A stretch of DNA of 64,000 nucleotides from the NCBI RefSeq assembly GCF_030238365.1, contig NZ_JASSOT010000062.1:62001-126000 (forward strand), read 5' to 3'. Made by a program: the position numbers and the translations under genes. Shown piece after piece: positions 16,857 to 45,956 of the stretch. This DNA is from Lelliottia wanjuensis. GTDB taxonomy: Bacteria > Pseudomonadota > Gammaproteobacteria > Enterobacterales > Enterobacteriaceae. Numbering within the stretch: position 1 is the first letter of the stretch; every line of letters begins with the position of its first letter. The notes below the pieces were generated by a model. That model was not told the origin of the DNA. It did no database searches and was given only the letters and a program-made list of their open reading frames with translations.

Positions 16857-19454
16857 TTATACCGCGGTCTGGAAGATCACGCCGTCCGCTTTCTCGGTGT
16901 ACTGAGAGAGCTTATCGAAGTTCAGATAGCGATAGGTATCCACCGCCGTCTTATCAACCTGAGCAACATAGGTCTGGTACTCTTCCGGCGTTGGGAGTTT
17001 GCCGATCAGCGCCGCAACCGCCGCCAGCTCCGCAGAGGCCAGGTAGACGTTCGCGCCGGTTCCTAAACGGTTCGGGAAGTTACGGGTTGAGGTGGAGACC
17101 ACGGTCGCACCGTCAGCCACGCGCGCCTGGTTACCCATACACAGGGAACAGCCAGGGATTTCGATGCGCGCACCGCTCTTACCAAACACGCTGTAGTAGC
17201 CTTCTTCCGTCAGCTGTGCCGCATCCATACGCGTTGGCGGAGCGACCCACAGACGGGTTGGCAGCTGGCCTTTATGGGTATCCAGCAGCTTACCGGCCGC
17301 ACGGAAGTGACCGATGTTGGTCATGCAAGAGCCGATGAACACTTCGTCGATCTTATCGCCCTGCACATCAGACAGCAGACGCGCATCGTCAGGATCGTTT
17401 GGTGCACACAGGATTGGCTCTTTGATGTCCGCCAGATCGATGTCGATCACCGCCGCGTATTCTGCGTCAGCATCGGCTTCGAGCAGCTGCGGATCGGCCA
17501 GCCATTTTTCCATGCCCTGCACGCGACGCTCCAGCGTACGACGATCGCCGTAACCTTCGGCAATCATCCACTTCAGCAGCACGATGTTAGAGGTGAGATA
17601 CTCAACGATCGGCTCCTGGTTCAGCTTGATGGTGCAGCCTGCCGCAGAACGCTCGGCGGACGCATCGGTCAGCTCAAACGCCTGCTCCACTTTCAGATCC
17701 GGCAGACCTTCGATCTCCAGAATGCGGCCAGAGAAGATGTTCTTCTTGCCTTTCTTCTCAACGGTCAGCAGACCCTGTTTGATCGCGTACAGCGGGATCG
17801 CATGTACCAGATCGCGCAGAGTGATGCCCGGCTGCATTTTGCCTTTGAAGCGCACCAGAACGGATTCCGGCATGTCCAGCGGCATCACGCCCGTCGCGGC
17901 AGCAAACGCCACCAGACCAGAACCGGCCGGGAAGGAGATGCCGATCGGGAAACGGGTATGGGAGTCACCACCGGTACCGACGGTATCCGGCAGCAGCATA
18001 CGGTTCAGCCAGGAGTGGATCACACCATCGCCCGGACGCAGGGAGACGCCGCCACGGTTCATGATGAAGTCTGGCAGAGTGTGGTGTGTGGTCACGTCAA
18101 CCGGCTTCGGATAGGCCGCCGTGTGGCAGAAGGACTGCATCACCAGGTCAGACGAGAAGCCCAGACACGCCAGGTCTTTCAGCTCATCACGGGTCATTGG
18201 ACCGGTGGTGTCCTGAGAACCGACGGAGGTCATTTTTGGCTCGCAGTACGCGCCCGGACGAACGCCGGTCACGCCGCATGCACGACCGACCATTTTCTGT
18301 GCCAGGGAGAAGCCGCGATTGCTCTCGGCCACGTCTTTCGCCTGACGGAACACATCGCTGTGCGGCAGACCGAGCGCTTCACGCGCTTTGGTGGTCAGGC
18401 CGCGACCGATGATCAGCGGGATACGGCCACCGGCGCGCACTTCGTCGATCAGCACGTCGGTTTTCAGCTCGAAGCTTGCCAGCAGTTCATTGGTTTCGTG
18501 GTTGCGGACTTCGCCTTTGAACGGATAAACGTCAATCACGTCACCCATGTTCAGGTTGTTGACGTCCACTTCGATCGGCAGTGCGCCCGCATCTTCCATA
18601 GTGTTGAAGAAGATCGGTGCGATTTTACCGCCAAGACACAGGCCGCCGCCGCGCTTGTTCGGCACATGAGGGATATCATCGCCCATGAACCACAGCACCG
18701 AGTTGGTCGCGGATTTACGCGAAGAGCCGGTCCCGACTACGTCACCGACGTAGGCCAGCGGGAAGCCTTTCTTATTTAACTCTTCGATCTGTTTGATCGG
18801 GCCAACGCTGCCCGGCTGATCCGGATGGATGCCTTCGCGGGCGTTTTTCAGCATCGCCAGAGCGTGCAGTGGGATATCCGGGCGAGACCAGGCATCCGGA
18901 GCCGGCGACAGGTCATCGGTGTTGGTTTCACCGGTCACTTTGAAGACGGTGACGGTAATTTTTTCGGCAAGCTGTGGACGGTTCAGGAACCATTCGGCAT
19001 CAGCCCAGGATTGCATCACCTGTTTTGCGTGACGGTTGCCGGCTTTGGCTTTCTCTTCCACATCGTAGAAGTTATCAAACATCAGCAGCGTCTGAGACAG
19101 CGCTTTGGCGGCAATCGGTGCCAGCGCGTCGCTATCCAGTGCATCAATTAACGGATGAATGTTGTAGCCGCCCTGCATGGTGCCGAGCAGTTCAATGGCT
19201 TTTTCAGGAGTGACCAGTGGGGAGGTGGCTTCGCCTTTGGCAACGGCAGCAAGGAATCCGGCTTTTACATACGCGGCTTCATCGACGCCAGGCGGAACGC
19301 GGTTGATCAACAGATCTAACAGGAATTCTTCTTCGCCCGCAGGCGGGTTCTTCAGCAGCTCGACGAGGCCGGCCATCTGGGTTGCATCTAAGGGTTTCGG
19401 TACAATTCCCTCGGCGGCACGTTCTGCTACGTGCTTACGGTATTCTTCTAGCAC
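16857..19454 (-). CDS. acnB: Bifunctional aconitate hydratase 2 / 2-methylisocitrate dehydratase
   Basis: AcnB is the main TCA-cycle aconitase, interconverting citrate and isocitrate. The apo-form also binds mRNA. The 865-residue protein has the N-terminal HEAT-like domain, the swivelling domain with [18 protein letters not shown], and the cluster cysteines in [11 protein letters not shown] and [11 protein letters not shown] 19454 follows AGGAG (about eight bases away) and gives exactly the family length. Upstream in-frame ATGs would add nine residues. The region upstream to yacH is unusually long. Confidence 0.97.
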
Positions 19455-19667
19455 GACGGTTCTCCTCGCTCTCATTGTCATATGCGGTCGGCGTTCTCTT
19501 CACGCTCCTGTGAGACAGCAGTTTGTAGGGTAAATGCCCGATACCGCGTCGGGCAGCATAGCAGGATTTCTGCACAGTGTTAATCCGTTTACAAAAAAGC
19601 AACATTAAATAGTTTGCTGAATCGTTAAGGATGGTATAGCGCGCAAAGAGAGGGATTTTTCGGGCAC

Positions 19668-19691
19668 AAAAAAACCGCCTTTCAGCGGTTT
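19668..19691 (-). terminator. Terminator of a minus-strand small transcript
   Basis: On the minus strand AAACCGC (19691-19685) and GCGGTTT (19678-19672) flank a six-base loop, followed by a T-run (T7 in total including the stem end). No annotated gene ends here, so it implies a short minus-strand RNA starting within about 150 bases. Confidence 0.7.
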
Positions 19692-19709
19692 AGTTGGTGC
19701 CTTGCGGTG

Positions 19710-19748
19710 GTAGCACACCGGGCTGGCAGGTTTTGCGGCAATCCCAAC
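19710..19748. repeat. Diverged repeat, copy A
   Basis: It contains, in order, GTAGCA (19710-19715), CACCGGGC (19716-19723) and GCGGCAATCCCAAC (19735-19748). The same three blocks occur in the same order and orientation in copy B at 19906-19962, with different spacing. Confidence 0.65.
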
Positions 19749-19892
19749 GTTTTGAATTTTGCTCTTTCATTTGGTGCTGTGCAAGTCCTGTTTTTCTTTT
19801 TGCGTAGCGCCTTCAGCTTTCAAATGAAAATCAAAGAAACATTATCTCCGCGCTTCTTCCTCGATACTTCATACGCTAATCTCCATTCCGGC

Positions 19893-20005
19893 CTGCTTCG
19901 CTGGTGTAGCAACCAGTCACCGGGCCCGGAAGCAGTTCCATAACCTACGCGGCAATTCCAACTTGCCTGGTTCTGCCTTTTCCGGTGAAGAAGGAACCCG
20001 CGTAG
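19893..20005 (+). promoter_or_regulatory. Structured leader of the small ORF
   Basis: There are two successive inverted repeats. CTGCTTC (19893-19899) pairs with GAAGCAG (19929-19935) and encloses CTGGT/ACCAG (19901-19905 and 19912-19916). CTACGCGG (19945-19952) pairs with CCGCGTAG (19998-20005), and inside it GGTTC (19969-19973) can pair with GAACC (19994-19998). The second stem ends six bases before the Shine-Dalgarno AAAGG (20012-20016). A CCTTT at 19976-19980 could mask that site. Confidence 0.55.
19906..19962. repeat. Diverged repeat, copy B
   Basis: It holds GTAGCA (19906-19911), CACCGGGC (19918-19925) and GCGGCAATTCCAAC (19949-19962), colinear with copy A. It lies within the plus-strand leader of the small ORF. 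Confidence 0.65.
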
Positions 20006-20026
20006 CCCTGCAAAGGAACGCACGCA

Positions 20027-20146
20027 ATGGAGATGCGATATATCTATGCGCTGATCGTTGTGACCGGTTTACTGCTGACGGCGCTGCATGGTGGCTGGAA
20101 TATTTCCGACATCACGGTGCTGTTGGTCGTCAATCTCGGCAACTAG
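20027..20146 (+). CDS. Candidate 39-residue hydrophobic small protein
   Basis: The ORF starts at ATG 20027, nine bases after AAAGGA (20012-20017). A second in-frame ATG lies two codons later. The peptide begins MEMRYIYALIVVTGLLLTAL, a good single membrane segment, then HGGWNISD and a second hydrophobic stretch ending VVNLGN. The stop is five bases before a very strong terminator. I do not recognise the sequence with confidence. Size, hydrophobicity, structured leader and a complementary minus-strand repeat suggest a type I toxin or an RNA-regulated small membrane protein. A leader peptide for attenuation is an alternative, but it has no amino-acid run and yacH starts 200 bases later. Confidence 0.5.
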   Translation: MEMRYIYALIVVTGLLLTALHGGWNISDITVLLVVNLGN

Positions 20147-20151
20147 CTGCT

Positions 20152-20175
20152 GGCCGCTCGCAAGAGCGGCCTTTT
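20152..20175 (+). terminator. Strong terminator after the small ORF
   Basis: GGCCGCTC and GAGCGGCC form a perfect eight-base GC-rich stem with a GCAA tetraloop, followed by TTTT. It ends the transcript of the 39-codon ORF before yacH. Confidence 0.85.
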
Positions 20176-20346
20176 GAATTTCCCACGCCTTTTTCCCCAT
20201 CGGATATAATTTGTGTAATAAATGCTCACACTCTTTATCAGGACACTTCCGCCGTTTCCCAACATTAATCAAAACGGCACAGCACGGGTGAATATACTCG
20301 CGGCAACAAGAACGCCCATCGACACTGCTTACGCTGGAGTCACACT

Positions 20347-21900
20347 ATGAAGTTGCCCTTTAAGCCACACCTTCTGGTCCTGCTGTGCAGTGCCGGGCTG
20401 TTAGCCGCATCCGGCGTGATGTTTGTGAAGAGCCGGGCTCCAGAGACGGTCTCAACACCACCGGTCGCGGCGGTGCCTCAGCCCGTCCCCCCACCGCCTG
20501 CACCGGTTGTTACCCCAACCTATACCGCCGCGCAGATCGATCAGTGGACAGCCCCTATCGCGCTCTATCCCGACGCGCTGCTCTCGCAAATCCTGATGGC
20601 CTCCACCTATCCGGCAAACGTGATTCAGGCCGCGCAGTGGTCGAAAGACAATCCTAAAATGCAGGGCGACGCAGCCATTCAGGCGGTGAGCAATCAGCCG
20701 TGGGACCCGAGCGTCAAATCCCTGGTCGCCTTTCCTCAGCTGATGTCACTGATGGGTGAAAACCCGCCGTGGATACAGAGTCTCGGCGATGCGTTTCTGG
20801 CGCAGCCTAAGGATGTGATGGATTCCGTTCAGCGTCTGCGTCAACTGGCTCAGCAGACAGGCGCGCTGCAGTCCACGCCGCAGCAGACGGTCACCAGTGT
20901 GAAGAAAGCGGAACCGGCTGCCAGCACGACATCCGGCTCAACCGCGACCACCACCACGGCCACCACAACCAGCCCGACGGTTATCAAAATCGAATCTGCC
21001 GATCCGCAGGTGGTTTACGTCCCGACCTATAACCCCAACACAGTCTATGGCACCTGGCCAAGCACCAGCTATCCACCGGTCTACCTTCCCCCTTCCCCGG
21101 GCGAGCAGTTTACCGACAGCCTGGTAAAAGGCCTCGGCTTTAGCCTCGGAGTCGCCACCACCTACGCGATATTCAGTAATATCGACTGGGACGACGACGA
21201 TCACCACCATGACCACGATGATTATGACCACCACAACGGCGGCTATAACCGCAACGGCGATAACAACATCAACATCAACGTGGATAACTTCAATAAAATC
21301 AGCGGGCAGCGCCTGACGGATAACAACCGCACCTGGCAGCATAATCCTGCCTATCGTGAGGGGGTTCCGTATCCGAATAATCAGCTCAATAACCGTTTCC
21401 ACTCGACGAACAGCGCGACGGGCCTGAGTGCCACGCAGCAAAAACCGGTTAACCGCGACAGTCAGCGCCAGGCGGCACTGGCTCAGGTTCAGCAATCCAC
21501 CGGGAAAAACCTTTCGCAAACCCAGCGTCCGGCAACGAAAGACGCTCAGCGTCAGGCGGCCAACAATCAGCTGAAGCAGATTTCCGAGCGCAATAACTAT
21601 CGCGGGTACGACACCAACAAGCCACAGACCACGCAGCGCGCGAATAACAGAGCCCAGCGCGATAACCATCAGAATCTGTCCCAGCGGCAGGAGCGACCGA
21701 CTACGCAACCCGTTCGCCAGCGAAATACGCAACCGCGGGCCAATGCCTTAAGCGGCAACGATAGCCGGTCAGGCAACTGGCAGGCGCAGCAGCAGCGCGG
21801 CGCGCAGAGCCGTCAGTTCACCGCGCAACACCAGAACCGTCAGCAGCCGCGGCAAATGCCAGCGGGCCGCACTGAACACCGTGAATTCCGCCACCGCTAA
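20347..21900 (+). CDS. yacH: DUF3300 family protein YacH
   Basis: This is a predicted envelope protein of 517 residues with an N-terminal hydrophobic signal or anchor (HLLVLLCSAGLLAASGVMF), then a proline-rich linker. The DUF3300 region spans about residues 60-270 (WTAPIALYPDALLSQILMAS, WDPSVKSLVAFPQ, VYVPTYNPNTVYG). An acidic and histidine-rich patch near residues 279-297 (DWDDDDHHHDHDDYDHH) may bind metal. The C-terminal 200 residues are low-complexity, rich in Gln, Asn and Arg, and probably disordered. It is about 100 residues shorter than E. coli YacH as I remember it. The function is unknown. It is followed 10 bases later by a DUF2950 gene. Confidence 0.9.
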   Translation: MKLPFKPHLLVLLCSAGLLAASGVMFVKSRAPETVSTPPVAAVPQPVPPPPAPVVTPTYTAAQIDQWTAPIALYPDALLSQILMASTYPANVIQAAQWSKDNPKMQGDAAIQAVSNQPWDPSVKSLVAFPQLMSLMGENPPWIQSLGDAFLAQPKDVMDSVQRLRQLAQQTGALQSTPQQTVTSVKKAEPAASTTSGSTATTTTATTTSPTVIKIESADPQVVYVPTYNPNTVYGTWPSTSYPPVYLPPSPGEQFTDSLVKGLGFSLGVATTYAIFSNIDWDDDDHHHDHDDYDHHNGGYNRNGDNNININVDNFNKISGQRLTDNNRTWQHNPAYREGVPYPNNQLNNRFHSTNSATGLSATQQKPVNRDSQRQAALAQVQQSTGKNLSQTQRPATKDAQRQAANNQLKQISERNNYRGYDTNKPQTTQRANNRAQRDNHQNLSQRQERPTTQPVRQRNTQPRANALSGNDSRSGNWQAQQQRGAQSRQFTAQHQNRQQPRQMPAGRTEHREFRHR

Positions 21901-28941: not shown

Positions 28942-29064
28942 GGGGGTATTCCTTATCTATCTAATACGTTGATTTGTCTGGAACCTGTCCCATTGTGCTC
29001 TCAACAAAGAACACAATAAGACAGGTTCTGCGTTTAGTTGCCGCGCTCTAAAAATGCCAGGCGC

Positions 29065-43205: not shown

Positions 43206-43233
43206 AAAAAAGGCGCAGAAATCTGCGCCTTTT
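43206..43233 (-). terminator. Terminator after secA
   Basis: AGGCGCAGA and TCTGCGCCT form a perfect nine-base stem, flanked by an A-run and TTT on the plus strand, so the minus-strand RNA ends in CCTTTTTTATGG. It lies between secA and mutT. Confidence 0.85.
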
Positions 43234-43250
43234 CGATTGGTGATACGTGT

Positions 43251-45956
43251 TTAGCTCAGACGGCCGTGACACGCTTTGTATTTTTTACCGGAACCGCATG
43301 GGCACGGATCGTTACGACCCACTTTGCGATCGCCCGTCTGGGCTGCGATCGCCGCGGCGGCTTCGTCTTCATCGGTCTGATGGCTCAGCTGTTGCATCTG
43401 CGCCAGACGCTCAGCTTCTTCACGACGCTGCTGCTCCATCGCTTCCACTTCTTCCGGCATACGCACCTGAACTTTGCTCAGGGTACTGATCACTTCGTAT
43501 TTCAGTGACTCCAGCATAGACGCGAACATCGCGAAGGATTCACGTTTGTATTCCTGCTTAGGATCTTTCTGCGCATAGCCACGCAGGTGGATACCCTGAC
43601 GCAGGTAGTCCATCGCTGCCAGGTGCTCTTTCCACAGGGAGTCCAGAGTCTGCAGCATGACGCCTTTCTCGAAGTGACGCATCATCTCAACGCCAACCAC
43701 TTCTTCCTTCTGCTTGTAAACAGCAACCGCAGTTTCCAGAATACGTTCGCGCAGCGTCTCTTCGTGCAGCTCTGGCTCTTTGTCCAGCCACTCTTTGATC
43801 GGCAGTTCGAGATCGAAGTCGTTTTTCAGGCGTTCCTGCAGGCCTTCAACATCCCACATCTCTTCCAGAGACTGCGGCGGAATGTGCGCATCGATGGTCA
43901 CTTTGAACACATCTTCGCGAATGCTGTTGATGGTTTCGCTCACGTCGGACACGTCCAGCAGTTCGTTACGCTGGGAGTAGATCGCGCGACGCTGATCGTT
44001 AGCTACGTCATCATATTCAAGCAGTTGCTTACGGATATCGAAGTTGCGGCTTTCCACTTTACGCTGGGCGTTGGCAATCGCTTTGGTCACCCATGGGTGC
44101 TCAATCGCTTCGCCTGGTTTCATCCCCAGTTTGCGCATCATGCCGGACACGCGGTCAGAGGCGAAGATACGCATCAGGGCATCTTCCATCGACAGGTAGA
44201 AGCGGGAAGAACCGGCATCACCCTGACGACCCGCACGACCACGAAGCTGGTTATCGATACGACGAGATTCGTGACGCTCGGTACCGATAATGTGCAGACC
44301 GCCAGACGCCAGAACCGCGTCGTGACGTACCTGCCAGTCGGCTTTGATCTGCGCAATTTGTTCTGGAGTTGGGTTTTCCAGCTCGGCGATTTCGGCCTGC
44401 CAGCTACCACCCAGCATAATATCGGTACCACGACCCGCCATGTTGGTGGCGATGGTCACTGCCGCCGGATAACCGGCCTGAGCAACGATATCCGCTTCTT
44501 TGGCGTGGAATTTGGCGTTCAGCACGTTGTGCTTGATGCCCGCTTTATCCAGCTCGTGAGAAACCACTTCGGATTTCTCGATGGAAATTGTACCCACCAG
44601 CACCGGCTGACCTGCAGCGGTACGCTCGCGGATATCTTCGATGATTGCCTGGATTTTTTCCGCTTCGGTCATGTACACCAGATCCGGCATGTCTTTACGG
44701 ATCATTGGACGGTTAGTCGGAACGACGACGGTATCCAGTTTGTAGATAGAGCTGAATTCGAACGCTTCGGTATCCGCTGTACCGGTCATGCCCGCCAGTT
44801 TTTCATACAGACGGAAGTAGTTCTGGAAGGTGATAGAAGCCAGCGTCTGGTTTTCGTTCTGGATATCCACGCCTTCTTTGGCTTCCACAGCCTGGTGCAG
44901 ACCATCGGACCAGCGGCGGCCCTGCATGGTACGGCCGGTGTGTTCATCAACGATGATAACTTCGCCGTCTTTCACGATGTAATCCACATCGCGGGTGAAC
45001 AGCACGTGAGCGCGCAGCGCTGCGGTTACGTGGTGCATCAGCATGATGTTGGTTGGGGAGTAGAGTGACTCGCCCTCTTCCATGATGCCCTGCTCAACCA
45101 GCAGCTCTTCGATCTGCACCAGACCGCGTTCGGTCAGGTTAACCTGACGCGCTTTTTCGTCCACGGAGAAGTGACCTTCTCCCTGGAAGGTATCGGAGTC
45201 TTCTTTTTCCTGACGGATCAGGTGCGGAATGATTTTGTCGACTTTGCGGTACATCTCGGAGCTGTCTTCAGCCGGGCCAGAGATGATAAGCGGGGTACGA
45301 GCTTCATCGATGAGGATTGAGTCGACCTCATCCACCAGCGCGTAGTGCAGTTTGCGCTGTACGCGCTCTTCCGGGCTAAACGCCATGTTGTCGCGCAGAT
45401 AGTCAAAACCGTATTCGTTGTTGGTGCCGTAGGTGATGTCCGCGCCGTAAGCTTCGCGCTTGGCCGGAGCAGGCAGGCCAGACATGTTGATACCCACGGA
45501 CATACCGAGGAATTCGAACAGTGGACGGTTGTTTTCGGCGTCACGCTGCGCCAGATAGTCGTTGACGGTGACGACGTGAACGCCTTTACCGGTCAGTGCG
45601 TTGAGGTACGCAGGCAGCGTTGCGGTCAGGGTTTTACCTTCACCCGTACGCATTTCTGCGATGCAGCGTTCGTTCAGAACCATACCGCCGAGCAGCTGAA
45701 CGTCGAAGTGACGCATCCCGAATACGCGTTTACTCGCTTCGCGAACCACGGCGAAGGCTTCCGGGATCAGGCTTTCCAGAGTTGCACCTTTTGCCAGACG
45801 CTCACGGAATTCACCGGTTTTCGCTTTCAGTTCGTCATCGGAGAGTTTTTCCATCTCCGGTTCCATACCGTTGATGACGGTGACCGCTTTGCGCATGCGG
45901 CGCAGGGTACGATCGTTACGACTACCGAAAACTTTGGTTAATAACTTGATTAGCAT
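43251..45956 (-). CDS. secA: Protein translocase motor ATPase SecA
   Basis: SecA drives preproteins through SecYEG. The 901-residue protein has Walker A MRTGEGKT, the DEAD-type [20 protein letters not shown], the second motor domain with [13 protein letters not shown] and [16 protein letters not shown], and the C-terminal zinc segment [14 protein letters not shown] that binds SecB. Its expression is governed by the upstream secM, whose stalled translation opens the secA ribosome binding site. The secM stop is 60 bases before the ATG. Confidence 0.98.

Follow-up and report, generated by a model that had tools for sequence, protein, structure and literature searches.

A probable, diverged timPR-like toxin-antitoxin module between acnB and yacH in Lelliottia wanjuensis and its relatives, with repeated joint change of the predicted antidote RNA and its target

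The gap between acnB and yacH in Lelliottia wanjuensis was analysed within a stretch of 64,000 nucleotides (contig NZ_JASSOT010000062.1, positions 62,001 to 126,000, forward strand; from here on referred to as the window) and holds two divergent units inside two outward-facing hairpins. In window coordinates the locus is made up of the following features:

16857-19481, minus strand: acnB, one flank of the module-bearing gap
19668-19749, minus strand: predicted timR-like antitoxin RNA gene, its 5' end placed from promoter-like boxes
19672-19691, minus strand: timR terminator-like hairpin, seen again in aligned relatives
19735-19748, minus strand: predicted TimR seed (core of repeat copy A), from seed-target co-variation and a shuffle test
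19756-19784, minus strand: timR promoter-like boxes TTGCAC-17-CAAAAT, weak, found by eye and missed by the scan
19888-20175, plus strand: predicted extent of the timP-like mRNA (Rfam RF00126, ryfA model positions 1-296)
19949-19962, plus strand: predicted TimR target (core of repeat copy B), from seed-target co-variation and a shuffle test
20013-20017, plus strand: Shine-Dalgarno sequence AAGGA, partly inside the less well kept hairpin SL4
20027-20146, plus strand: timP-like ORF of 39 codons, pN/pS 0.25 across 23 relatives
20152-20171, plus strand: timP terminator-like hairpin, seen again in aligned relatives
20347-21900, plus strand: yacH, the other flank of the gap

Re-reading of the coordinates bore out the 39-codon ORF with its ribosome binding site described in the initial annotation, and the two opposed terminator-like hairpins are likewise present. 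A consensus terminator scan gave 2 hairpins against a shuffle mean of 1.7, which alone is not above chance, but both hairpins recur among aligned relatives, the timR one being interrupted in locus L107 (genome G005) by an insert of ~1.4 kb that leaves the seed and timP in place. Only a short T-tract follows the timP hairpin, TTTT here and TTCT in many relatives. No sigma-70 promoter was found for either the timP-like or the timR-like gene by a consensus scan of the locus; on the timP side a weak promoter-like box, TAATCT at 19877 on the plus strand, was identified by eye.

The ORF is coding and under purifying selection, and the conservation of its frame among relatives was checked over 23 ORFs, each taken whole in the coding test. 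The pN/pS value was 0.25 in frame compared with 2.89 and 1.35 in the two shifted frames, which are interrupted by stops in 23/23 and 13/23 ORFs respectively, and the variable columns at the three codon positions numbered 8, 7 and 19. The N-terminal half of the peptide is hydrophobic, with a mean hydropathy of 2.12 over residues 5-19. Searches of the peptide against Pfam, NCBIfam and PADLOC gave no match, tblastn against plasmids and phages gave none at E 0.01, and the NCBIfam model NF040796 (toxic_TimP) did not match the 39 residues at E up to 10, while in a control E. coli TimP scored 80.5 bits with the NCBIfam TimP model.

A permissive Rfam scan of positions 19480-20350 aligned RF00126 (ryfA) to 19888-20175 on the plus strand over all 296 model positions (40.8 bits, E 8e-9), which is half of the curated gathering score of 80; other weak Rfam matches at the locus (MIR1514, isrK and three more) were taken as chance. 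The acnB-yacH locus holds the single ryfA match in the whole Lelliottia wanjuensis genome. ryfA is described as the messenger that encodes TimP; in Salmonella this inner-membrane peptide is toxic, and a divergent RNA, TimR, represses it (PMC7667032). Among the further diverged loci 0/19 reached the gathering score of RF00126, but a bridging locus, L153, does reach it with 167.7 bits; its peptide matches the profile built from the new peptides (E 9.3e-7) as well as the NCBIfam TimP model (E 7.1e-10, 39 bits, cut-off 45). Since L153 matches both, the new peptides and TimP are linked by homology, beyond mere likeness. The Lelliottia locus lies below the curated thresholds of both models and was therefore filed as a diverged variant, homologous to timPR and timPR-like in its predicted working. 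Taken together, it is very probable from these comparisons that the acnB-yacH locus is a chromosomal type I toxin-antitoxin module, homologous to timPR and working like timPR. The type I layout proposed in the initial annotation is thus supported by the conserved coding frame, the divergent antisense gene and the co-variation of antitoxin and target. The peptide had not been recognised there as any of the toxins listed (zorO, shoB, tisB and dinQ), and this part was refined to a diverged timPR/ryfA, a family that had not been named.

In zorO/orzO and tisB/istR-1, as here, a divergent antitoxin RNA has limited complementarity to the toxin leader. The likeness lies in the layout; the acnB-yacH locus itself matches ryfA. 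zorO is also mentioned in PMC5333039, and tisB in PMC11228461. With timP/TimR of Salmonella Typhimurium, as described in PMC7667032 and PMC11228461, it shares a small hydrophobic peptide, a predicted antisense RNA that is divergent and followed by a terminator-like hairpin, a TimR 5' end complementary to the 5' UTR ~50 nt before the Shine-Dalgarno sequence and a predicted 7-bp pseudoknot between SL1 and SL3. It differs in its site (in E. coli, timP sits between sseA and sseB), in a complementarity of 14 bases rather than the 18 given for Salmonella, in a peptide too diverged for the NCBIfam TimP model and in a specificity loop that varies from species to species. As far as literature searches show, what is new is the acnB-yacH position, this subfamily and the way in which matched antitoxin-target types turn over; no description of an acnB-yacH timPR was found in the literature searched, and the words acnB and yacH occur 0 times in the available text of PMC7667032.

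The predicted leader keeps the anatomy of published timP, with SL1, an SL2 whose loop bears the TimR target, SL3 and the 7-bp pseudoknot:

19893-19935, plus strand: SL1, stems 19893-19899/19929-19935 and 19901-19905/19912-19916
19918-19924, plus strand: pseudoknot strand CACCGGG in SL1, paired in 99.6% of cells (40 leaders)
19945-20005, plus strand: outer stem CTACGC/GCGTAG around SL2 and SL3, 95.8% of cells paired, 3/6 pairs changed on both sides
19951-19967, plus strand: SL2, made up of GGCAA, the variable loop 19956-19962 and TTGCC
19969-19998, plus strand: SL3, stem 19969-19973/19994-19998
19981-19987, plus strand: pseudoknot partner TCCGGTG in the SL3 loop, one G-U in this genome

Over 40 leaders this scheme (SL1, SL2, SL3, outer stem and the 7-bp SL1-SL3 pseudoknot) was paired in 98.6% of cells, compared with 24.6-50.7% in slid controls, a share biased towards the scheme because it was drawn with the published timP leader in mind. 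Covariation in the leader, which the initial annotation had named as a check, came to 7 both-side pair changes against 2.4 in shuffles, the number of further pair types not being above shuffles. In the pseudoknot 5/7 pairs are invariant across the 40 leaders, with a change from C-G to U-A in 3/20 rows of a wider set, and since its pairs are mostly invariant its covariation is thin. SL4, over the Shine-Dalgarno sequence, is kept less well than the rest of the leader (84.1% of cells paired). Against this scheme, an unconstrained fold of the whole RNA, allowing no pseudoknot (z -3.34), formed the outer stem and lacked SL2 as drawn.

When analysing the genus sample, the acnB start was found and the acnB-yacH gap read in 61/61 genomes, of which 24 carry the module, 16 carry remnants (counted at the threshold used, some of only 22 bases) and 21 have no detected trace. 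The 24 consist of 23 with the module ORF plus L107, whose ORF was recognised in the alignment, and one of two identical conspecific copies was omitted from them to give the 23 modules compared. With stricter filters ryfA found the module in only 8/24 carrier genomes. ryfA copies above the gathering score lie elsewhere in 39/61 genomes, including 17 of the 24 carriers, with none in the Lelliottia wanjuensis genome; simple peptide and repeat finders, which missed many classic loci, were used only in a survey of 30 of these copies and for the paralogue duplexes. Neither sseA nor sseB was found within 1.5 kb of the 30 copies (L032-L061, 0/30), while both were found in the E. coli control, for which the ryfA search used the RNA alone as a wider query matches IS66 in the flank. 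A blastn search with the module against E. coli genomes gave no match at E 1e-5. An exact 22-base piece of the leader was present in named records of five Enterobacter species, Lelliottia, Leclercia and Huaxiibacter (8 stretches), and in the family the peptide profile matched 26/392 genomes from 12/154 genera, acnB being in the fetched flank for 21/28 matches; a TimP relative, L152, lies on a contig ending close by.

Among the 16 remnants, when inspected by eye, seven lack the ORF and retain the hairpin and seed of timR (L075, L078, L081, L091, L109, L121 and L122) and another, L085, consists of an SL1 piece and the timP hairpin, while no ORF without copy A was found among the gaps read. This asymmetry of loss fits a toxin and its antidote, the numbers being small and not independent. 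In L075 (genome G078) the module has lost its ORF to a deletion that starts where the leader ends and reaches into the terminator, and both places share CGCTCGCAA, exactly or almost.

By analogy with Salmonella, the plus-strand RNA would be a timP-like mRNA whose hydrophobic product of 39 residues is probably a toxic inner-membrane peptide. The SL1-SL3 arrangement is essential for timP translation there (PMC11228461), and the leader at acnB-yacH probably depends on its pseudoknot to be translated, its Shine-Dalgarno sequence being partly hidden; the minus-strand RNA would be TimR, its 5' end pairing with the SL2 loop, disturbing the pseudoknot and blocking translation. We infer toxicity, membrane location, pseudoknot-dependent translation and repression by TimR from Salmonella timPR. 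That the plus-strand RNA is instead mainly regulatory (RyfA), or encodes a non-toxic membrane modulator, with TimR as a regulator and toxicity as an effect of overexpression, appears unlikely. Such a role would agree with the Salmonella timR deletion, in which TimP is made with no loss of growth (PMC7667032), with work in E. coli and Shigella regarding RyfA as a regulatory RNA (PMC13188913, PMC5333039) and with a leader and loop that are kept as well as the ORF, but it is opposed by the purifying selection on the reading frame and, in small numbers, by the seven remnants with a timR seed and no ORF, the reverse not being seen.

The distribution, with the module in 24/61 genomes and remnants in 16, is also what a decaying selfish relic with no present function would leave. 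This is improbable, as frame, leader and seed-target match are all kept in 23 distinct modules.

The 14-base core repeat proposed initially stood up well; the cores of copies A and B are identical at 13/14 positions and 0/150 dinucleotide shuffles reached 13 (best 12, in 6). The shorter colinear blocks TAGCA and CACCGGG given with it are present too, but the CACCGGG of copy A, kept in 21/23 relatives, sits in TimR's own predicted hairpin, so that it may or may not take part in the pairing. As CCCGGTG in TimR (window 19716-19722) it has the letters of the SL3 pseudoknot strand in most relatives and could pair with SL1, although it forms a stem when TimR is folded by itself. In that fold the TimR 5' end is predicted to be partly paired, a point against the proposed reading.

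Across the 23 modules the predicted duplex of TimR with its own timP had a mean of -27.3 compared with -18.8 kcal/mol for crossed pairs, and 0/10,000 permutations matched the observed sum of own pairs, in agreement with the earlier proposal of a minus-strand RNA complementary to the leader of the small ORF. In 10/23 cases a TimR paired better with another locus than with its own, usually one of the same type, where types I-III are labels assigned in this analysis from the seed letters; the means were -27.3 for own, -24.1 for same-type (128) and -17.0 kcal/mol for other-type pairs (378). A seed-target match of useful length was present in 46/48 loci, the two without (L151 and L153) having a misplaced anchor or being partial. 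Within the first 14 bases of 18 distinct pairs, 16/16 seed-target differences keep a G-U pair, and 7 mismatches all lie at positions 15-16. In a wider set of 30 distinct pairs from 40 loci, which omits L151, L153 and six loci with another SL2 stem, the 12-base core showed 14 tolerant and 2 breaking differences, while uncropped matches (39 distinct) showed 18 tolerant and 13 non-tolerant ones, most of the latter outside the core. The 14-base repeat is therefore the predicted antitoxin seed and target, and the predicted pairing site is the SL2 loop, ~50 nt 5' of the Shine-Dalgarno sequence as for Salmonella TimR (PMC11228461).

Copies A and B are direct repeats ~200 bp apart, identical in several loci, and could have been kept alike by homogenisation of the DNA (gene conversion) or by recent duplication with no RNA pairing. 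This is very improbable, since the one-way, G-U-keeping excess (16/16 over 14 bases, 14/16 in the 12-base core) argues for RNA pairing on the predicted strands and the flanks of the repeats are unlike outside the core. The copies co-vary between species and are therefore not a low-complexity match. A role as leader peptide or as attenuator for yacH, or in the control of acnB, is scarcely credible even with the module upstream of yacH on the same strand, as a hairpin intervenes before yacH and 37/61 genomes have the gap without the module.

Within the timPR-like module the antidote RNA and its target site appear to have undergone repeated joint changes between related species. Mapped onto an acnB tree of 23 genomes, specificity type switches 11 times, close to the shuffled mean of 12.3 and as low in 47/200 shuffles, so that type is decoupled from descent. 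Five sister pairs differ in type; their ORFs are 90-98% and their timR bodies 92-98% alike, while the intergenic spacer is 47-57% alike in four pairs and 81% in the fifth, and own pairing exceeded crossed pairing in 10/10 comparisons. Locus L106 combines the outer parts of L089/L100 with the centre of L096. From the five pairs, this mosaic and the preference for own partners, both halves therefore seem to move together with the promoters and SL1. Spacer identity averages 71% for same-type and 56% for different-type pairs; same-type spacers are also loose (62% in the sisters G011/G020), so a part of the contrast is drift. We infer an exchange of cassettes between species from these alignments.

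A published precedent for loop specificity exists in the two copies of Shigella dysenteriae, ryfA1/ryfB1 and ryfA2/ryfB2, which carry a variable region within the pairing site and where RyfB1 lowers RyfA1 and not RyfA2 (PMC5333039). Unlike those near-identical siblings in one place of one species, the acnB-yacH modules comprise many types across species in a distant subfamily. It is possible, and is put forward tentatively, that specificity types are exchangeable at the acnB-yacH timPR. Recombination would then move the seed and the SL2 loop, as the ends of a central cassette, in matched form between species, leaving the ORF and the TimR body in place, and variants of related species would recognise each other poorly; an orphan TimR could then be immunity against an incoming timP of the same type, and selection for rare types would drive the turnover.

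These loci widen the known range of a toxin-antitoxin family that has received little study, adding a further chromosomal site and sequences missed by the RNA and protein models tried. They provide naturally occurring antitoxin-target pairs, both matched and mismatched, and so make two questions testable in a laboratory strain: how the specificity of an RNA antitoxin that targets a loop is determined, and for what reason a toxin-antitoxin pair on the chromosome switches specificity so often.

Both an acnB-yacH module and a further copy are present in 17 genomes, and in 11 of these the TimR of the site gave -29.5 to -35.4 with the leader of its own locus compared with -17.7 to -27.8 kcal/mol with the other timP; cross pairing is thus weaker and not negligible, and duplex energies were rejected as proof that paralogues do not cross-react. 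Genome G271 holds two tandem timPR modules (L141 and L158), separated by 526 bases, whose peptides are identical and whose SL2 loops differ; each TimR favours its own partner (-30.8 and -25.6 compared with -13.9 and -19.7). Genome G373 has, close to each other, two copies of another timP subfamily (L155 and L159), which do not adjoin acnB and showed no own-partner preference by duplex energy; a pseudoknot pair in them is changed on both sides. Elsewhere in the window Rfam placed the sRNA tp2 at 28945-29057 on the plus strand (109.8 bits) and the sRNA STnc40 at 43206-43275 on the minus strand (68.7 bits).
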